Source: Desulfobacterales bacterium (GTDB taxonomy: Bacteria; Desulfobacterota; Desulfobacteria; Desulfobacterales; Desulfosalsimonadaceae). From it: 37,214 nucleotides of DNA. The number at the start of each line of letters is the position of its first letter. The stretch's first letter is position 1. This document shows, piece after piece, positions 5,092-17,113 of this stretch. Under the pieces are notes generated by a model. The model was given only the letters and a program-made list of their open reading frames with translations. It made no database searches and was not told where the DNA came from. The DNA lies in NCBI GenBank assembly GCA_007134875.1, contig SLJY01000128.1, positions 1 to 37,214 of the forward strand. Direction: 5' to 3'. The translations under genes were made by a program, and so were the position numbers.

Positions 5092-5562
5092 TTACGAACC
5101 GATCATGACAATGCACATGGCGGCGATCCCTTCCCCTTTTCCGATAAAACCCAGTCCTTCGGTGGTGGTCGCCTTGATATTCACACAATCCACCGGAAGC
5201 ACCAGCGCGGCGGCGATATTTTCCGCCATCCCCGCCCGGTACGGTGCGAGCCGGGGGGCTTCCGCGAATACGGTCGCATCGACATTGTAAATCCGGGGGA
5301 ATGCTTGGCCCACCATCTGCCGCGTCCGCTCCAGCAGTCGGATGCTGACGGCGTCCCGGTAGGCCGGATCCGAATCGGGGAAGTGGTACCCGATATCTAC
5401 CAGGCCAGCGGCACCCAGCAGGGCGTCGCACACGGCATGAACCAGCACATCGGCGTCCGAGTGGCCGTCCAGTCCCTTTTCATAGGGGATCTCCACGCCG
5501 CCCAGAACCAACCGCCTGCCCTTCACCAACCTGTGCACATCATTGCCGATGCCGACGCGCAT
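5092..5562 (-). CDS. ispF: 2-C-methyl-D-erythritol 2,4-cyclodiphosphate synthase
   Basis: IspF catalyses the cyclisation step of the non-mevalonate isoprenoid pathway, forming MEcPP and releasing CMP. The 156-residue protein is full length. Metal ligands are visible as Asp8 and His10 (NDVHRL) and His42 (GHSDADVLVHA), with the DIGYHFPDSD segment and the C-terminal TTEGLGFIGKGEG nucleotide-binding segment. The ATG at 5562 has an AGGAG ribosome site about 6 nt upstream. It sits between the HDAC-like gene (99 nt upstream) and cysS, in a minus-strand run leading to uvrB and uvrC. Many related bacteria have IspD next to or fused with IspF; here no ispD is in view. Confidence 0.96.
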   Translation of the reverse strand: MRVGIGNDVHRLVKGRRLVLGGVEIPYEKGLDGHSDADVLVHAVCDALLGAAGLVDIGYHFPDSDPAYRDAVSIRLLERTRQMVGQAFPRIYNVDATVFAEAPRLAPYRAGMAENIAAALVLPVDCVNIKATTTEGLGFIGKGEGIAAMCIVMIGS

Positions 5563-5661
5563 AACCGCTCCTGATTATAAAATCATAGGGTTTCATAGCA
5601 TATCAGTGCACCATGGTAAACGGGCAAATGCCCGCCCGGGTGAACACGGGAGCTATTTCCC

Positions 5662-6417
5662 TTATTCGTCGTCCGGCATCCACAGGCCGCCCATGAGGGC
5701 GGCGGCGTTCCGGCCCAGCACGTTGTGATTATAGCCCCCCTCGAGCAGGGCGAAGCATCCGCCCCCGGAACCCCTTGCCGCATGCCGGACCATCCGGCCG
5801 ATGGCGCGGTAGTCGTCGGTTGCCATCAGTCCGCCCCAGTCGTTCATGTGATTGTCGAAGCCGGCTGAAATACCGATCAGATCGACCCGGTTTTCCGAAA
5901 GAATCTGTTCCACTTCGTACAGATATTTCTCCCGGGAGTTTTTGGCGATATTGAACGTTTTGACCCAGTGTTTTCCCCCCAGGATATTGTCGGTTCCGTC
6001 TCCGTAATGAAGATCGATATCCAGTACAATCGCTGAACCGATACGTTTTTCTTCATGCAGCGCAAGAAGGGCGATGGCCATGTTGTTGAAATAACAGAAC
6101 CCCCATGAACTGTCCGCCGAAGCATGATGACCCGGCGGCCGGATTGCCCCGAAAGCCGGCTCTTCCAATCCGATACGGGCTGTGTCGATGGCGGCGCCCG
6201 CTGCAAGCGCGGCAACGTCGTACAGCCCCTGGCGCTTCACATCATCGACGTGATGCCGGGTATGCGCCAGCAGGATCTGTTTTTCGGACGCATAACCGGG
6301 GCTGGTGATTTCGGCGTATTCCGGCAGCGCCCGGATAACGGATTCCATACGTCCCGGTTCTGCGGCCGGATCCCGCGTGTATACCGTGTAAAAATACTCA
6401 TCGAACAATACTTTCAT
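5662..6417 (-). CDS. Histone-deacetylase superfamily (AcuC/Hdac-like) zinc deacetylase
   Basis: This is a member of the arginase/deacetylase fold family that hydrolyses acetyl-amide bonds; bacterial members act on acetyl-lysine, acetylpolyamines or acetoin-related substrates. The active site looks complete: the His pair at 97-98 (RPPGHHA), zinc ligands Asp133 or Asp135 with His137 (LDIDLHYGDGT), Asp188 (GISAGFD) and the GGYN segment at 227-230. At 251 residues it is shorter than most AcuC proteins (over 300). A strong AGGAGG site lies 9 nt before the ATG. The FN3/barrel gene lies 47 nt upstream and ispF 99 nt downstream on the same strand. The substrate cannot be told from the sequence. Confidence 0.88.
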   Translation of the reverse strand: MKVLFDEYFYTVYTRDPAAEPGRMESVIRALPEYAEITSPGYASEKQILLAHTRHHVDDVKRQGLYDVAALAAGAAIDTARIGLEEPAFGAIRPPGHHASADSSWGFCYFNNMAIALLALHEEKRIGSAIVLDIDLHYGDGTDNILGGKHWVKTFNIAKNSREKYLYEVEQILSENRVDLIGISAGFDNHMNDWGGLMATDDYRAIGRMVRHAARGSGGGCFALLEGGYNHNVLGRNAAALMGGLWMPDDE

Positions 6418-6464
6418 CCGGAATTTCCTCCTTATTTATGGCTATCGGGATCGGGATCGAAATG

Positions 6465-8060
6465 TCAAAAGCTGTAAAACCCCCCGATCAAAAACATCCA
6501 CCCGCCAAGGTCCACATCGTTCTTCCCAAACCGATCGATCACGGAATACCGCGTTTCCAACATCATGCCCCACCGGCGGTACCGGGTATCCGTATTATGC
6601 AGCCACAGCCCGGCCCGGCCGTGGTATCCCCCGATCCACTTACTGGTATCGTCGCGGGTATCCAGATCCGAGGTTTCCCGGATATACCAGTAATCCGGAC
6701 CGGCCCCGACGAAGCCCCATATATAGGGGATGATCGGAAAGCGTGCGTTGAGCGATGCGGTGACCGGGACCATGGTATAGGTGGCGTCCACCCCGGTGCG
6801 CGATCCGGTTGCGGTCGTCCGGAGCGTCCCGGAAGAGCGCATGAAACCGGCATGTAAATCGGCTGTGAAATACCGGTGCAGGCCCCGCTCGTAAAAAAGA
6901 AAAACAGGATAGTTGTCCGTGCCGTAATGATCGTCGAAATCCGATTCGGCCGGAATGAAATACCCTCCGGATATGCCCGCCTTGTTCGGATGTTCGGTTA
7001 CGTCGTAATCCTCCCTGCGAATTTCCCTCGACCCGGAAACGCTTCCCACAAAGCATCCGCTTGAAAAATCGTCGAAACGATCCGTGAAGGACGCCATCTC
7101 CTCGACCGTTATGGCGATTTCCGCCGTGGGATCGCTTTCATTGCCGGTTTCGTCGTAGGCGACGGCGGAAAAATGCCATTCGCTGTAAAACGGACGGTCT
7201 TCAAGAGTCAATACAGCCGATCGGCCCGTATCCGCCTCGCTGTCCGGTGCGCCGGGCGTCTCGCCGTAAAGGATGATCACCCCGGCATAATCGGTCATGT
7301 TCTCGTTGCCGGGCGTTACGGTGACGGTTATTTCCTTCTCGTCCGAGAGGCGTGCCCGGATGCCGGACGGGGTGTCGGGGGCAATGGTATCCGGAAGCGT
7401 ATCCAAGATGATCTCCCCGGCCTTTGCGGACGCCTCCGCCTCATCGTTCACGAAAGCCATGGCGCTGATATTGAAATAATACCGTGTATCTGAATCCAGA
7501 GCCGTTATTTCGACCGCGGTTTCATCTCCGTTCAACCCGATCGGATCGCCGTACGCACCAGGGGATGTCCCGTAATAGATCCGGTATTCATCGACATCCG
7601 AATCCGGGCTTTCATCCCACACCAGCCGGACGGATGTCTCCGTTCTCCAGCCTTCTTGCGGGGCTCTCCAGAAATTTTTCGGCGGTTCAGGGGCCTTGTC
7701 TTCCGGAAGGGTCCTGACAGACTGCGGATCGGATCGATCACCCTCCCCAAGAAAAGGATACTCGACTGACATGGCAAATTCATATTCGGTATTTGGTTCA
7801 AGTCCTTCGATAGTGTACTCTTCCCGGTTCGGATTCTCGATTGTTTCCTTTTCCGGAAAATCCGATTCTGGTAACCCCCAGTAGATATAATATGCCTCCG
7901 CATCCGTCACTCTCTCCCAGTTCACGGTCACAGAGCATACATCCGGCTCATAAGAAATATTGCCCGGGGGTTGGAGAGTGGCGGTGAACACAGTGATCGC
8001 GGGGATCAACAAGAAAACAAAACATACAATCAAAAAAAGAAGGTTTCTTATACGTCTCAA
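6465..8060 (-). CDS. Exported protein with three fibronectin type III domains and a C-terminal beta-barrel-like domain
   Basis: The 531-residue protein begins with a signal peptide (hydrophobic stretch at residues 6-26). Three FN3-like repeats follow, at about 30-117, 122-220 and 226-320. Each has the Trp on strand B (VTVNWE, VRLVWD) and the late Tyr segments (TEYEFAMS, TRYYFNIS) of the fold. From about 330 to the end the sequence changes to alternating aromatic strands and finishes in FYSF, as in outer-membrane barrels with a C-terminal Phe. I infer surface-exposed or periplasmic FN3 repeats tethered by an outer-membrane barrel. The start is a TTG that overlaps the stop of the truncated GDPD gene by 4 nt (TTGA), so translation is probably coupled. 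Its function is not known. Confidence 0.8.
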   Translation of the reverse strand: MRRIRNLLFLIVCFVFLLIPAITVFTATLQPPGNISYEPDVCSVTVNWERVTDAEAYYIYWGLPESDFPEKETIENPNREEYTIEGLEPNTEYEFAMSVEYPFLGEGDRSDPQSVRTLPEDKAPEPPKNFWRAPQEGWRTETSVRLVWDESPDSDVDEYRIYYGTSPGAYGDPIGLNGDETAVEITALDSDTRYYFNISAMAFVNDEAEASAKAGEIILDTLPDTIAPDTPSGIRARLSDEKEITVTVTPGNENMTDYAGVIILYGETPGAPDSEADTGRSAVLTLEDRPFYSEWHFSAVAYDETGNESDPTAEIAITVEEMASFTDRFDDFSSGCFVGSVSGSREIRREDYDVTEHPNKAGISGGYFIPAESDFDDHYGTDNYPVFLFYERGLHRYFTADLHAGFMRSSGTLRTTATGSRTGVDATYTMVPVTASLNARFPIIPYIWGFVGAGPDYWYIRETSDLDTRDDTSKWIGGYHGRAGLWLHNTDTRYRRWGMMLETRYSVIDRFGKNDVDLGGWMFLIGGFYSF

Positions 8061-11289: not shown

Positions 11290-14118
11290 TCACCCGGCCT
11301 CCGGGTCGTCCGGCATCCCGCGCAGTATCAGGCCGGAGGGAAGGGCTTCGCCGAAGATGGCATTTTCCTCCTGCTTTTCAAAGGCCGCAATCTCCCTTAG
11401 AGGACCCGTTTTTTCCGGCATACCGGTTTGGTCAAGCCACTTTTCAACCTGTTCGGCCAGTTCCGGGGAAATATCGCGCGCCCGGTCGCCGGTCTTCCTG
11501 GCCATCTGGACCATGGCATCCCCGGCTGCGGCAGGCTGCTTCCATCCGGCCTCCAGCATCCATTCAATCCAGGTGCTCACCTCCGCGGGGGGCACCACCC
11601 GATCGACCGGCCCATAGAGCAGCTCCCGCGCCCCCAGCCGGGAAAGGCACCACAGATGCTGGGGTTTGGCCTTTTTCGGGTTGATCTCCGCAATCAGCGC
11701 CCTGCCCCAGGCGGTTTTTTCCTTTGCCGCCAGGCGCTCCATGTTTGCAAGCGCCATGTACATTTCCACGTGCTCCTGCGGCGGAATCTTGGCTTTGCCG
11801 CCTTTTTTCGGCAGCAGAATCGCCCGGAGATCCTGTGAAAACTGGCGCTGCTGCCCTGCCGTGAGCCCGCCGGCGACCCGTCGCCATAAGATCCACCATT
11901 CGGCCCGTGCCTGCTGGTTATTGGCAAAGGCGACGCCGGGCTTGTAGAGTTTCCAGAGCATCCGGACACGATGCTCGTCGTAGCCGTCTCCAAATCCCGG
12001 CCGAATGCAGAATCCGGCCATGTTGAGCCACCGGATTTCATGGGCCGGGGAGTGCTTCCGGGTTTCCGGCTGCCCCAGCAGCCGGTCCGCGATTTTCCTG
12101 ATGAGTCCCAGGGGCCAGTTTTCCCGCTTCCGGCCGGCCGTCCGGGAGACGGCGCGGACCAGTCCGGAAAGATCCGACTCCTGGGCGTCTTTTCGAAACG
12201 CCTGGTCAACATCAATCAAAACCTCTTCCAGCACGTCCGAGTCGAATACTTCCCGGTCGGCGACACCCGATTCCGGACCGCCCACTCCGCGAAGCTGGAA
12301 GCGAAGCTGCCACCGGTGCCCGGTGGACCGGGAGGAGCACCATAGGGCAAGCACGCCGGCTTCCGTGTATTCCGCCTCGATGGTAACGCCGATGGCGGTT
12401 TTCGCCCCTTTACGGCCATACTGGATGACGGTTTCCAGCGGCGGAAGTGCGGTCATGGAATCATCGACGGAAACGATATCCCCGAACCGGTCCCCGGAGC
12501 GGTAACTGGAAGAGTAAAGCGCGAATGCCACGGGCTGGTTGGTCAGCACGTCAAATGCCATGTTGTCCAGCGCAAGCCGGCTTCCTTCGTCAAGGCCCCG
12601 CTCTACGATGCACACCGCCTTTTTGTCTTCTTCCCGCCGGCGACCGCCGGCATCGTCCGGTATTTCTCCGATACCCAGGTAATAGGCCCTCGGACTGCCG
12701 GAACCGACCCGTACCCCCAGCCCTGTCTTGATCAGTCCGTAGTAGGACGCCCCCAGAGCCACCGCAAGGTCAAGGCTTTTTGTTTCCAGCACGCGGGGCT
12801 GCGAGGTGTCGCGGCCGTCGAACCAGTGGCGGACGGCCTGCCGGATCCGGTTCTGCACGACGGCGGATTTGAGCGATCCACCGTTGAACAGGATGCGGTC
12901 GGGAAAGGGTTCCCTGGGCCCCAAAAGCATCGTGATGTCATCGGCATGGGTTTCCAGGAAATTTCCGATATGGCGGGTGATGGCCGGATCCTGTTCATAG
13001 GGAAGGCCGAACTCGGAAATGCCCTTTGTATGGGCTTTTTTGGATTTCGGAGATTTTTCCGCCAAGGGGAAAAATCCATCCACGACGATTTCTTCCAGCG
13101 ATTTCCGGTCGATGCATGCCGAGAGGGTACCGCCGATAAGCCGGCTCCCCTCGCCCATCAGCGTGATGGTTTCCGATTCGGCGCCATCGTTGAGAATGTT
13201 TTCCTTGGCCTGACAGCACAGGTGGCAAAGGGATTTCCATCGATCTCCGTCCAGGCGGGTGCGTGTCTGAAACCGGGATTCAACCAGCCGGGCCAGTGCG
13301 AGATCGATGTTGTCGCCCCCCAGGATGAGATGATCCCCGACGGCAATCCGTTCAAAGCGCGGAGAGCCGCCATCTGTTTCAACCAGGGTGATCAGGGTCA
13401 GATCCGTGGTTCCGCCGCCCACGTCGCAGACCAGGATCAGTTCACCGGGCTGAACATGTTCCTGCCAGTCGTGCTCGTGCAGAATCAGCCAGCTGTAGAA
13501 TGCGGACAGGGGTTCCTCCAGAAGAAGAACGCCCGGAAGGCCGGCCATCCGGGCCGCCTCCAGGGTCAGATCCCGGGCGATCTCGTCGAAGGAGGCCGGC
13601 ACGGTCACCACCAGAAACTGGTTTTCCAGGATATCGTCCTCGCTGGAAGCCGACCCTGAAACCGAATGATTCCAGGCCCGCCGGATATGATCCAGGTAGG
13701 AGGCGGTGGCTTCCACGGGCGAAATCTTGCCGATTTCGTCTTTGGCGCCCCAGGGAAGTATCCGGGCACGGCGGTCGGCTCCGGCGTGGCAGAGCCAGCT
13801 CTTGGAGGATGCAACGAGCCTGGAAGGCACGCGCCCCCCCAGTTCCCGGGCAAACGTGCCAACCACATGGGTGGGCTCCGGATTCCAGGGCAGCCGGATA
13901 TCTTCGGCGGCGATCTCGTATTTGCCGGGTATATAGTAGAAGGACGGAAGCACCGGACGCGCGGATACCTCCCCCGTTCCTGTGAGCTGGGGGATATCGA
14001 AAATCCGGATCCCTTTGTCCTTTTTATCTTTCGCGTACCGGTCGACCCAGGAGACCGCCGAATTGGTGGTTCCTAAGTCAATGCCGACAATGTAACGCTT
14101 GTCTCCCCAGTCCGTCAT
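11290..14118 (-). CDS. Large Hsp70-family protein with C-terminal helical extension (DUF3731-like)
   Basis: A divergent DnaK relative of 942 residues. The actin-fold ATPase domain is clear: phosphate 1 GIDLGTTNS (12-20), the LLEEPLSAFYSW segment holding the catalytic Glu, phosphate 2 VCDVGGGTTD and the adenosine motif LFNGGSLKS. The usual DnaK linker (DVLLLD type) and canonical lid are not seen. After a beta-rich segment near 520-640 comes about 300 residues of mainly helical sequence, of the kind I recall as DUF3731 in this family. The start ATG overlaps the stop of the upstream Hsp70 gene by ATGA, with GGGAG 9 nt before it. It is the last gene of the DUF2760-Hsp70-Hsp70 run. The client is unknown. 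Confidence 0.88.
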   Translation of the reverse strand: MTDWGDKRYIVGIDLGTTNSAVSWVDRYAKDKKDKGIRIFDIPQLTGTGEVSARPVLPSFYYIPGKYEIAAEDIRLPWNPEPTHVVGTFARELGGRVPSRLVASSKSWLCHAGADRRARILPWGAKDEIGKISPVEATASYLDHIRRAWNHSVSGSASSEDDILENQFLVVTVPASFDEIARDLTLEAARMAGLPGVLLLEEPLSAFYSWLILHEHDWQEHVQPGELILVCDVGGGTTDLTLITLVETDGGSPRFERIAVGDHLILGGDNIDLALARLVESRFQTRTRLDGDRWKSLCHLCCQAKENILNDGAESETITLMGEGSRLIGGTLSACIDRKSLEEIVVDGFFPLAEKSPKSKKAHTKGISEFGLPYEQDPAITRHIGNFLETHADDITMLLGPREPFPDRILFNGGSLKSAVVQNRIRQAVRHWFDGRDTSQPRVLETKSLDLAVALGASYYGLIKTGLGVRVGSGSPRAYYLGIGEIPDDAGGRRREEDKKAVCIVERGLDEGSRLALDNMAFDVLTNQPVAFALYSSSYRSGDRFGDIVSVDDSMTALPPLETVIQYGRKGAKTAIGVTIEAEYTEAGVLALWCSSRSTGHRWQLRFQLRGVGGPESGVADREVFDSDVLEEVLIDVDQAFRKDAQESDLSGLVRAVSRTAGRKRENWPLGLIRKIADRLLGQPETRKHSPAHEIRWLNMAGFCIRPGFGDGYDEHRVRMLWKLYKPGVAFANNQQARAEWWILWRRVAGGLTAGQQRQFSQDLRAILLPKKGGKAKIPPQEHVEMYMALANMERLAAKEKTAWGRALIAEINPKKAKPQHLWCLSRLGARELLYGPVDRVVPPAEVSTWIEWMLEAGWKQPAAAGDAMVQMARKTGDRARDISPELAEQVEKWLDQTGMPEKTGPLREIAAFEKQEENAIFGEALPSGLILRGMPDDPEAG

Positions 14119-15926
14119 CCGGTCTGCTCCCGTACATTGAATTCAAGCTTCCAGCGGGTCCCGTCCGCCACGGATACGCACCATATCTCCAGGGTGCCGA
14201 TTTCGGTGGCGTGAACTTCGAGGTTAACCCGGACAGCGGTGCCCGCCTCGCCGTCCAGAACGGTTTCCAGGGTAGTCAGCTCCTCGATTTCGTCCTGCCA
14301 GTCCTCGATCACGGCCCCGGCGGGATCGTTTTTCCGGATGGCGGAGCTGAAAAACTCGAAACGGACCGCCTCCCCCACTCTAAGCACGAATTCCCGCCCG
14401 GAAAGAAAAGCCCGGGTTCCTTCTTCCATGCCGAAAGGCGCCACGCACAGTGCCTTGACCGGCGCCGGCATCCCCGGAACCGCCGGCATGGCCGCTGCGA
14501 TGCCGATATAGTAGGATTTCCCGAGCCCTCCCCGGATCCGGATGCCACGGCCCCTGCGGGCATGGCCATAGTATGCCGCACCACGGGCCACGGCAAGGTC
14601 GAATTCACCGGATTCGATCTCCCGGATCCTGTTTTTTTCACCGGACCATCCGTTCAGAATTGCCTTGATCCGGTTTCGTATGGCTTCGGATTTCATGACG
14701 CCGCCGTTGAACAGCACCGCGGTCGGCGTTTCGCTCCCCTCCGGCCCCTCCGGACCGTCGGCCGTCCGACGGTTCAGAAAGGCGGCCAGATGCCTTGTGA
14801 TTCCGGGATCGCTGGCATAGACCAGGCCCGCCTCCTGGAGGCCCGTTCGCGCCCCGGATGCCGGGTTGGCCGTTGCCTCGCACGCCGGGAAAAACCCTTC
14901 CAGCAGAACGGATTCCATGTCCGGGGCTTCCAGGGCGGTTTTGACGGCCCCGCCGATCAGCCCGGAGCCCCTTCCCAGTATCGTGATGGGACACGAATCG
15001 ATGTCGCCTTTTGAAAACAAGGTTTCCTTGGCTTCGCGGCACCCGTGGACCAGGCCCCGCATCTGCCAGGAATCAATGCGGGTTCCGGACTCGGCCAGTT
15101 TCCTGGCGAGATGATAGGCTAGGGCGAGGTCCATGTTATCCCCGCCCACCAGGAGATGATCCCCCACCGCCGTCCTTTCGAGCACAAGGCTGCCTTCCTC
15201 CTCGGAAATGCGTATCAGGCTGAAGTCGGTGGTGCCGCCGCCCACGTCGCAGAGAAGCACAAGATCCCCCTTTTCCACGGCCTTTCGCCAGGCCTCCCCT
15301 GCCGAATCGATCCAGGAGTAAAAGGCGGCCTGGGGTTCTTCAAGGAGGGTGATACGGGCCAGGCCCGCCTGTTCGGCCGCCTGGACTGTCAATTGTCTGG
15401 CAACGGCATCGAAGGAAGCGGGCACCGTGAGAAAAATCTCCTGGTTTCCCATGGCCATGGCTGGATCTTCCCCGGCCATTTCGTGATTCCAGGCATCCCG
15501 GATATGGTTAAGAATTTCGGCGGAAGCCTGCACGGGGCTGATCTTTTCCACATCCTCCGGTGATTCCCAGGGGAGTATGGGGCTTTCCCGGTTGACCGAC
15601 GTATTGCACAGCCAGGACTTGGCGGAAGCGATCACCCTGTGGGGCACCTCCGCGCCCCGCTCCCGCGCATACTCGCCCGCAACCTTTTTCACGCCTGAAG
15701 CCCAGGGCAGATCGAATGCCCCGTCGGCAATCTCCGCATTCGTGGGTACATATAGAAACGAGGCCAGTGACGGGCGCCTTGATACGGTGTGCGGGGATAT
15801 CACCTGGGGTATCGGAAAAATCCGGATGGCAGCGGACGCTGTGCCGTCCGGGTCGGCGTATGTGTAGGCCACGATGGAGTTGGTGGTCCCGAGGTCGATA
15901 CCGATAATGAATGTTGAATCAGACAC
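14115..15926 (-). CDS. Hsp70-family protein, 603 residues
   Basis: A second divergent DnaK-like ATPase, clearly paralogous to its downstream neighbour over the first 470 residues (shared GIDLGTTNS, SKSWLC or AKSWLC, AWNH, LLEEP, VGGGTTD, GDHLLVGGDN, FNGG). After the ATPase domain only about 120 residues follow. They look like a small beta-sandwich (ELTTLETVLDGEAGTAVRV, then TEIGTLEIWCVS) and there is no helical lid. The start is GTG at 15926 with AGGAAAG about 8 nt upstream. The 4-nt overlap with the larger Hsp70 gene implies coupled synthesis, perhaps of a heteromeric complex. No grpE or dnaJ is adjacent and no CIRCE-type operator is visible. Confidence 0.9.
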   Translation of the reverse strand: MSDSTFIIGIDLGTTNSIVAYTYADPDGTASAAIRIFPIPQVISPHTVSRRPSLASFLYVPTNAEIADGAFDLPWASGVKKVAGEYARERGAEVPHRVIASAKSWLCNTSVNRESPILPWESPEDVEKISPVQASAEILNHIRDAWNHEMAGEDPAMAMGNQEIFLTVPASFDAVARQLTVQAAEQAGLARITLLEEPQAAFYSWIDSAGEAWRKAVEKGDLVLLCDVGGGTTDFSLIRISEEEGSLVLERTAVGDHLLVGGDNMDLALAYHLARKLAESGTRIDSWQMRGLVHGCREAKETLFSKGDIDSCPITILGRGSGLIGGAVKTALEAPDMESVLLEGFFPACEATANPASGARTGLQEAGLVYASDPGITRHLAAFLNRRTADGPEGPEGSETPTAVLFNGGVMKSEAIRNRIKAILNGWSGEKNRIREIESGEFDLAVARGAAYYGHARRGRGIRIRGGLGKSYYIGIAAAMPAVPGMPAPVKALCVAPFGMEEGTRAFLSGREFVLRVGEAVRFEFFSSAIRKNDPAGAVIEDWQDEIEELTTLETVLDGEAGTAVRVNLEVHATEIGTLEIWCVSVADGTRWKLEFNVREQTG

Positions 15927-15951
15927 GATAGAATCTTTCCTGCATAGGGTT

Positions 15952-16049
15952 TATATCTGTGTGAATCCGTGTGATCTGTGGGCTTAAAACCAAGACGAGG
16001 TAACAATCATGGCCCGCGGATCACACAGATTCACACAGATTAACACAGG
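15952..16049. repeat. R3 repeat in inverted-repeat arrangement
   Basis: The left arm CTGTGTGAATCCGTGTGATC (15957-15976) and right arm GATCACACAGATTCACACAG (16019-16038) are reverse complements with one mismatch. TGTGGGC and GCCCGCG next to them extend the pairing imperfectly. The spacer is about 42 nt. The same words occur once at 8735-8780. It lies between the DUF2760 gene and the first Hsp70 gene, so it would fold inside that operon transcript. Confidence 0.8.
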
Positions 16050-16114
16050 TTGCTTTATTCAAAACGCTGGGGGGTGGCAGTGCAGCATGTTTGTTGGCGG
16101 TTTGGATCCTGTTG

Positions 16115-16960
16115 TCATTGAATTTCCACTTCCGCGGGGGCGATGATTTTGGGATCCCCCGTTCCCGTGATCACGGGCAGTTCCAGGCTGCCTGCGCGCC
16201 ATCCGCGGTGCCTTAAAACCCCTTTGAACGGAGGCTCCCCGGTGACATTTCCGGTGAGTTTGATTGCCGTCGGATCGAAATCCGGCGGAACGCCTACCGT
16301 ATCGCCCTCAGCCTCTTCCATCACCGGCTGCGGGGAGAGGTTTTTCATGAGGCTTTTTTTGCAGTTGTCATGAATGCTTCGCACCGCCGCCCCGATTTGG
16401 GCGTCATCATACGGGGAGAGGTCTTCCTGAAGGAAATCAACGAGGCGACCCTCTCGCTGGAGCACCGACAGGACATGGAGATAATAGCGCCGATTCTTCT
16501 CCTGTGCATCTTTTTTGGAAATGGCTTTTGCGGCACCATCATCATCGAAATCCGGCTCCCCCACGATTTTGCGGCCGAATTTCTTTTTGGCTTCCGCCAC
16601 GGGTTTCTTCTTCGCGCCATCGGTGGTCTCCCGGTGGGTTCCCACTCCACCGCGCCGCAGGGCCCGGACGACGATTCCCCGCACCGTAAGCCAGCACAAA
16701 ATGAAAAAAATCACAAACACGGCAATGGATGCGGGTATGAACAGATCGCGGACCTGTTCCACCAGGGGCCAGATCCGCTGCACGCCCTCTTCCAACTCCG
16801 GTTTTTCCAGGGCGGCGGTTTTCAGGGACTCCAGGGGAACGGCCGAAAAAATATGCACCGCGCCTGCATAAAAGCCGCCGCTGATCAGCCCGGCCAGCAG
16901 CAACGTGTAAAAAAATAACCACAGAAACGTTCTTCTGGATATTGATCGGACGATGGTCAT
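16115..16960 (-). CDS. DUF2760 membrane protein of the Hsp70 operon
   Basis: The 281-residue protein has two membrane helices near the N-terminus (about residues 10-33 and 70-95). A basic charged linker follows (KKKPVAEAKKKFGRK), then a conserved cytoplasmic domain with YYLHVLSVLQREGRLVDFLQEDLSPYDD, AAVRSIHDNCKKSL and a C-terminal segment FKGVLRHRGWRAGSLELP. This pattern is DUF2760, a family of unknown function that I know as a regular neighbour of paired Hsp70 genes. ATG 16960 is chosen because AGGGAGA lies 8 nt upstream; the frame extends to 17062, but the extension reads like noise. The first Hsp70 gene begins 188 nt downstream. I infer a membrane anchor or client-recruiting subunit for the chaperones. 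Confidence 0.85.
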   Translation of the reverse strand: MTIVRSISRRTFLWLFFYTLLLAGLISGGFYAGAVHIFSAVPLESLKTAALEKPELEEGVQRIWPLVEQVRDLFIPASIAVFVIFFILCWLTVRGIVVRALRRGGVGTHRETTDGAKKKPVAEAKKKFGRKIVGEPDFDDDGAAKAISKKDAQEKNRRYYLHVLSVLQREGRLVDFLQEDLSPYDDAQIGAAVRSIHDNCKKSLMKNLSPQPVMEEAEGDTVGVPPDFDPTAIKLTGNVTGEPPFKGVLRHRGWRAGSLELPVITGTGDPKIIAPAEVEIQ

Positions 16961-17113
16961 AGATGAGTCTCCCTGGTGCATGAAGAATGAATGAAGCCAA
17001 TGCACAATGATCATTTTGCAGGCATGACGGGTCAAGATACTGCAATATAAATCGATAATCAATAGATTCTATCCAGGCCCCTGTCAAGAACCTTTTCCAG
17101 CAAAGATTTTGCC

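Follow-up and report, generated by a model that had tools for sequence, protein, structure and literature searches.

Background

Known Hsp70 systems depend on J-proteins and exchange factors, which act via few conserved contacts. In DnaK, Arg167 docks the J-domain, and this residue together with the hydrophobic interdomain linker carries the J-domain response and the interdomain coupling. Related systems include HscA, the Hsp70 of Fe–S cluster assembly, and eukaryotic Hsp110/Grp170 with Hsp70, a paralogue pair with one enlarged member, where the helical bundle of Hsp110 grips Hsp70; HspBP1, Fes1, and Sil1 are Hsp70 exchange factors built from HEAT/ARM repeats. Here, a three-gene locus (the trio) was analysed on contig SLJY01000128.1 of a Desulfobacterales bacterium (assembly GCA_007134875.1, Desulfosalsimonadaceae), the window being the whole stretch of 37,214 nucleotides (positions 1 to 37,214). 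In order of transcription on the minus strand, the locus encodes a DUF2760 protein (281 amino acids (aa), 16115..16960), a lidless divergent Hsp70 (603 aa, GTG start, 14115..15926, hereafter SMALL), and a divergent Hsp70 with a helical C-terminal domain (942 aa, 11290..14118, hereafter BIG). Coordinates, strands, and lengths agree with those of an earlier annotation made from the letters of the window (the original prediction), which had proposed a dedicated membrane-tethered chaperone complex.

Distribution, gene order, and origin

The gene set is, on good evidence, genuine, widely distributed, and inherited together. Among 447 genomes of two phyla, 45 had BIG or DUF2760, and 41 of these had both. 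BIG (via its DUF3731 domain) was present in 24 and DUF2760 in 25 of 198 Desulfobacterota genomes, with both in 23, the three discordant genomes being assemblies of 62–85% completeness; for 249 Pseudomonadota genomes the respective numbers were 18, 19, and 18. Fisher's exact test on both phyla pooled gave p = 2.7e-53, a value that overstates the strength of the association because related genomes are not independent. Co-occurrence also held in seven genomes where BIG is unlinked (250 kb apart in one of them). DUF2760 scored above cut-off in 33 of 294, 8 of 297, and 123 of 195 genomes of the phyla sampled around a Planctomycetota, an Acidobacteriota, and a Myxococcota locus, respectively.

The order DUF2760–SMALL–BIG was found outright in 48 of 80 named loci, window included; DUF2760 lay at most 300 bp from SMALL in 67 of the 70 loci having both, and SMALL at most 300 bp from BIG in 50 of 55. 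Trio order was seen in at least six phyla (as named in the sequence records: Desulfobacterota, Planctomycetota, Acidobacteriota, Myxococcota, Nitrospirota, Verrucomicrobiota, and beta/gammaproteobacteria). The original prediction had made recurrence beyond close relatives one half of its own refutation test, and on this half it held. The annotated trio also occurs on named plasmids, including conjugative Bradyrhizobium plasmids, where it was once located ~1 kb from groES/groEL. None of the genes adjoining the trio loci was general enough to serve as a conserved fourth neighbour pointing to function.

A tree of 80 rows (SMALL and BIG from 40 loci) contained a single SMALL|BIG split with a support of 0.935, and the distance matrices of SMALL and BIG were correlated with r = 0.91; SMALL and BIG thus stem from one ancient duplication and were inherited jointly afterwards. 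The nesting of SMALL inside BIG in a first tree, where SMALL came from one phylum only, was gone under balanced sampling.

Conserved and replaced features of the two Hsp70s

Both proteins belong to the Hsp70 superfamily by their matches to PF00012 (SMALL 68.8 and BIG 54.5 bits, cut-off 20.6) and lie far from canonical DnaK, scoring 65.0 and 55.2 bits against the NCBIfam DnaK equivalog with its cut-off of 648. The nearest NCBIfam model by score was HscA, which was likewise far from reached (77–87 bits, cut-off ≥620), and no Fe–S assembly genes recurred in the trio neighbourhood. Residues were compared for 19 SMALL and 42 BIG sequences with the genome's own DnaK as reference. D8, T11, K70, P143, R151, E171, and the phosphate-2 motif DxGGGTxD (DnaK numbering) were invariant in all of them (the lysine equivalent to K70 is residue 103 in SMALL and 106 in BIG of the window), so that the intact ATP-site motifs reported in the original prediction extend to every relative aligned.

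Features outside the catalytic site were replaced. At the position of DnaK Arg167, SMALL has Thr in 17 of 19 sequences (T/V/H overall), in the window within ITLLEEP (15333..15353, minus strand); the 42 BIG sequences have mostly Thr (22) or Ile (7), with Arg in 5 and Val in the window's BIG. The DnaK linker VLLLD corresponds to I-[RK]-[GAS]-G in SMALL (conserved stretch IRIRGG in the window, 14526..14543, minus strand) and to [IV]-G-[GSA]-G in most BIG (altered counterpart VRVGSG, 12697..12714, minus strand). A canonical lid is missing from both, as originally predicted: by alignment, SMALL stops at the final strand of its beta domain for substrate binding, and BIG carries DUF3731 (PF12531) where the DnaK lid would be, at residues 690–932 (11323..12051, minus strand; 293.8 bits, cut-off 25, E 1.7e-87). 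As groups, neither SMALL nor BIG thus has the canonical DnaK linker, Arg167, or alpha-helical lid.

In the structural model of BIG (mean predicted local distance difference test (pLDDT) score 83), residues 7–615 matched DnaK and BiP with Z 31–37, the strands of the substrate-binding beta domain span residues 478–608 and align to DnaK/BiP through residue ~615, and residues 627–922 are all helical, in line with the roughly 300-residue helical C-terminus unlike a DnaK substrate domain noted before. The beta domain is assigned by sequence and model in BIG and by alignment only in SMALL.

The reading that SMALL and BIG are no chaperones, serving as an Hsp70-fold ATP switch or scaffold like many actin-superfamily proteins, draws on their great sequence distance from DnaK, the altered linker, and an MreB-like match of SMALL (30.1 bits, cut-off 27). 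Set against the complete beta domain for substrate binding that the BIG model shows, a trio that can adjoin groESL, and the stress phenotypes of a candidate BIG deletion (PMC8265645), it has little probability in our view.

The enlarged BIG also raises the option that it serves SMALL chiefly as nucleotide exchange factor and holdase in the manner of Hsp110, with its helical domain gripping the nucleotide-binding domain of SMALL and DUF2760 as anchor or client adaptor. As with Hsp110/Grp170 and Hsp70, two paralogous Hsp70s, one of them enlarged, are inherited together, a helical domain follows the beta domain in BIG, and the Hsp110 nucleotide-binding domain 6gfa was among the structural matches of BIG (Z 31.5). 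Ordinary Hsp70s, however, matched the BIG model equally well or better, the C-terminal domain is a different one (DUF3731), and BIG occurs without SMALL in two genomes. BIG furthermore keeps every catalytic residue checked, which an exchange factor could dispense with, and the ATPase sites of both Hsp70s are conserved. We therefore regard an Hsp110-like division of labour as unlikely.

DUF3731 is not demonstrably HEAT-like either, since a comparison with HEAT repeats gave no support (hhalign E 0.14). The point of contact with the HEAT/ARM exchange factors is a HEAT-repeat protein of ~292 aa encoded directly downstream of SMALL, at the usual place of BIG, in one Desulfobacterota group only (five loci). 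A phage defence role was also discarded, the PADLOC match being weak and inside the Hsp70 domain only.

The DUF2760 protein

The first gene product of the trio matched PF10816 with 168.3 bits (cut-off 25, E 7.8e-50), its DUF2760 domain being encoded at 16124–16483 on the minus strand. Two transmembrane segments were predicted by hydropathy scan, at residues 12–30 (16871..16927, minus strand; a helix in the model) and 73–91 (16688..16744, minus strand), which bears out the two-helix membrane protein of the original prediction. The model (pLDDT 85, predicted template modelling score 0.52) shows a two-helix hairpin followed by a C-terminal domain of helices and beta strands. The stretch following segment 2 is basic (5 K/R in 25 residues), so a cytoplasmic C-terminal domain is favoured.

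Of 60 DUF2760 relatives put through the same hydropathy scan, 27 were predicted to have two transmembrane segments, 13 to have one, 2 to have three, and 18 to have none, the last including proteins of Burkholderiales, Acidobacteria, and Myxococcus; two predicted helices are typical of most Desulfobacterota relatives. Membrane anchoring is thus a lineage trait and does not belong to the conserved DUF2760 core. This bears on the envelope complex of the original prediction, a chaperone complex working only at the membrane. The predicted helices of the window's protein and of most Desulfobacterota relatives, with the basic flank favouring a cytoplasmic domain, agree with such a complex, but the relatives without predicted segments do not, and no envelope genes recurred next to the trio; we hold it to be very unlikely. 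What stood of the earlier proposal is a dedicated set of Hsp70 genes separate from the DnaK/DnaJ/GrpE system, as indicated by co-occurrence, and what did not stand is the generality of the membrane tether.

DUF2760 could alternatively be a strongly diverged nucleotide exchange factor of the GrpE type that acts on the twin Hsp70s. GrpE (8gb3_E) was among 36 PDB chains passed on by Foldseek and aligned collinearly (model residues 128–259 to GrpE 44–177), and a low-threshold profile alignment paired FDP with FDP, GW with GY, and IIAPAEVEI with the LRPAxVxV end, a weak resemblance in topology and few motifs. The structural alignment, at Z 3.5 and a root-mean-square deviation of 9.8, is nevertheless in the range of noise. 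The hhalign E of 0.034 was obtained on trimmed regions chosen after the motif had been seen, which flatters it, and 13 of 149 control profiles matched or surpassed it; with a deeper alignment the score fell (E 0.09, with 38 of 174 controls equal or better). Nor did GrpE (PF01025) appear when Pfam matches of 60 DUF2760 members were listed at E up to 10 (25 families), under HMMER filters that drop weak matches, and part of the DUF2760 family carries transmembrane helices, which sets it apart from GrpE. With no significance against shuffled and control profiles, homology to GrpE was rejected as a finding and kept as a lead, and we consider an exchange factor of this type quite improbable.

Two further observations concern the DUF2760 sequence. 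VPPDFDPTAIKLT in the window's DUF2760 protein resembles VPASFDAVARQLT in SMALL, probably by chance; among the hhalign controls, the Hsp70 segment holding VPASFDAVARQLT scored best (E 4e-4). An apparent DUF2760 fusion in a protein of ~890 aa was a chance match, the sequence being that of an M16-type peptidase.

Published traces

The trio is nearly unstudied. The literature search returned no paper naming DUF2760 or DUF3731 and none on a "bacterial Hsp110," which accords with the original prediction of an undescribed function for the gene set, although a deletion phenotype has been published for an Hsp70 of Myxococcus xanthus that, at 925 aa, fits BIG. Deletion of this protein, MXAN_5323, lowers sporulation and H2O2 survival and has no effect on growth under heat, cold, or osmotic stress, and MXAN_5323 fails to replace E. 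coli dnaK (PMC8265645). BIG in the Myxococcus loci measures 924–925 aa. MXAN_5323, annotated by its nucleotide-binding domain only, is accordingly a candidate BIG by length and class. In a Burkholderia pseudomallei proteome paper, an "Hsp70 family protein" was quantified with a primer whose translation reads GEHILL (PMC7085900). This is a motif that Burkholderia SMALL has and BIG lacks, so the measured protein would be SMALL.

Proposed mechanism

As the most likely mechanism, to which we give about an even chance, the trio is proposed to be a dedicated two-Hsp70 proteostasis machine apart from DnaJ, with DUF2760 as co-chaperone or adaptor. SMALL and BIG, both of which combine a DnaK-like nucleotide-binding domain with a beta domain for substrate binding, would most likely act as a pair, in which SMALL would be the lidless Hsp70 and the helical DUF3731 of BIG may close over clients or grip a partner. 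Canonical J-proteins are unlikely drivers of the pair, given the substitutions at the J-docking arginine and in the hydrophobic linker; the replaced residues are observed, and the consequence for J-protein response is what we infer from them. DUF2760 would be an obligate co-chaperone or adaptor regulating or placing the pair, as suggested by co-occurrence. In this lineage its two predicted transmembrane helices would tether it to the inner membrane, its conserved domain lying in the cytoplasm, and elsewhere it would be soluble. The output is probably stress proteostasis, e.g., oxidative stress and sporulation in myxobacteria, given one published deletion.

Several points weigh against this mechanism. 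The loss of J-protein dependence is derived from few positions, and Arg is retained at the Arg167 position in 5 of the 42 BIG sequences. Two genomes of 99% completeness (G134 and G155) have BIG and DUF2760 but lack SMALL, and the Hsp70 pair is therefore not strictly obligatory, SMALL being the losable member. The assignment of MXAN_5323 as BIG is by length and class only, and the same kind of deletion effect was reported for three other non-canonical M. xanthus Hsp70s (PMC8265645). Foldseek returned no match with E <1 for the DUF2760 model, leaving the proposed adaptor with no known fold match.

Locus layout and neighbouring genes

With the end of SMALL at 14115 and the start of BIG at 14118, the two genes share the 4-base ATGA overlap of the original prediction. 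The DUF2760 gene starts with the ATG at 16960, the mechanical open reading frame (ORF) extending upstream to a TTG at 17062. A single transcript over DUF2760, SMALL, and BIG is likely, and no more than likely because a 188-bp gap with a palindromic repeat parts DUF2760 from SMALL. This palindromic dispersed repeat (15955..16040, no strand) is a possible attenuator, or may merely be an inserted repeat. Its arms are ATCTGTGTGAATCYGTGTGATC, with five further copies (≤1 mismatch) at four other sites of the genome; a facing pair was seen once more, at C110:29071-29157.

In agreement with the earlier statement that dnaJ and grpE are not adjacent, no J-domain or GrpE was detected among the window ORFs scanned, and grpE and dnaK of the genome adjoin each other on another contig (C121). 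The same genome has a second divergent GrpE with an Hsp70-like gene directly after it (contig C150, ~5508–7746), apart from dnaK, whose Hsp70-like frame may be broken (2 TAA in the search match). The CoA-ligase/ATP-grasp neighbour in the window adjoins BIG in few relatives only. Elsewhere, an RNase II-like gene (RNB domain) lies near DUF2760–SMALL in several Desulfobacterota loci, and a small secreted-looking protein recurs beside the trio in Methylococcales. Two records are probably misnamed: BNCN01000001.1, titled Comamonas sp. KCTC 72670, has a neighbourhood like that of Myxococcus/Corallococcus throughout and looks mislabelled, and CAMBFS010000129.1, titled as a Klebsiella pneumoniae metagenome-assembled genome, encodes a SMALL 56% identical to the deltaproteobacterial SMALL of the window, its title probably being wrong.

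Conclusions

A widely conserved Hsp70 pair keeps its ATPase residues, has lost two J-protein/exchange contacts, and is nearly always accompanied by DUF2760. A farther-reaching reading, possible though doubtful, is that of a new type of bacterial Hsp70 machine, i.e., a co-inherited pair without any J-domain protein, with DUF2760 as its own class of co-chaperone, spread as a self-contained three-gene module including on conjugative plasmids. If true, a J-independent machine would show that the Hsp70 cycle can be driven by a different route, and DUF2760 and DUF3731, both domains of unknown function, would acquire their first role; M. xanthus, as a tractable host, makes this reading testable.

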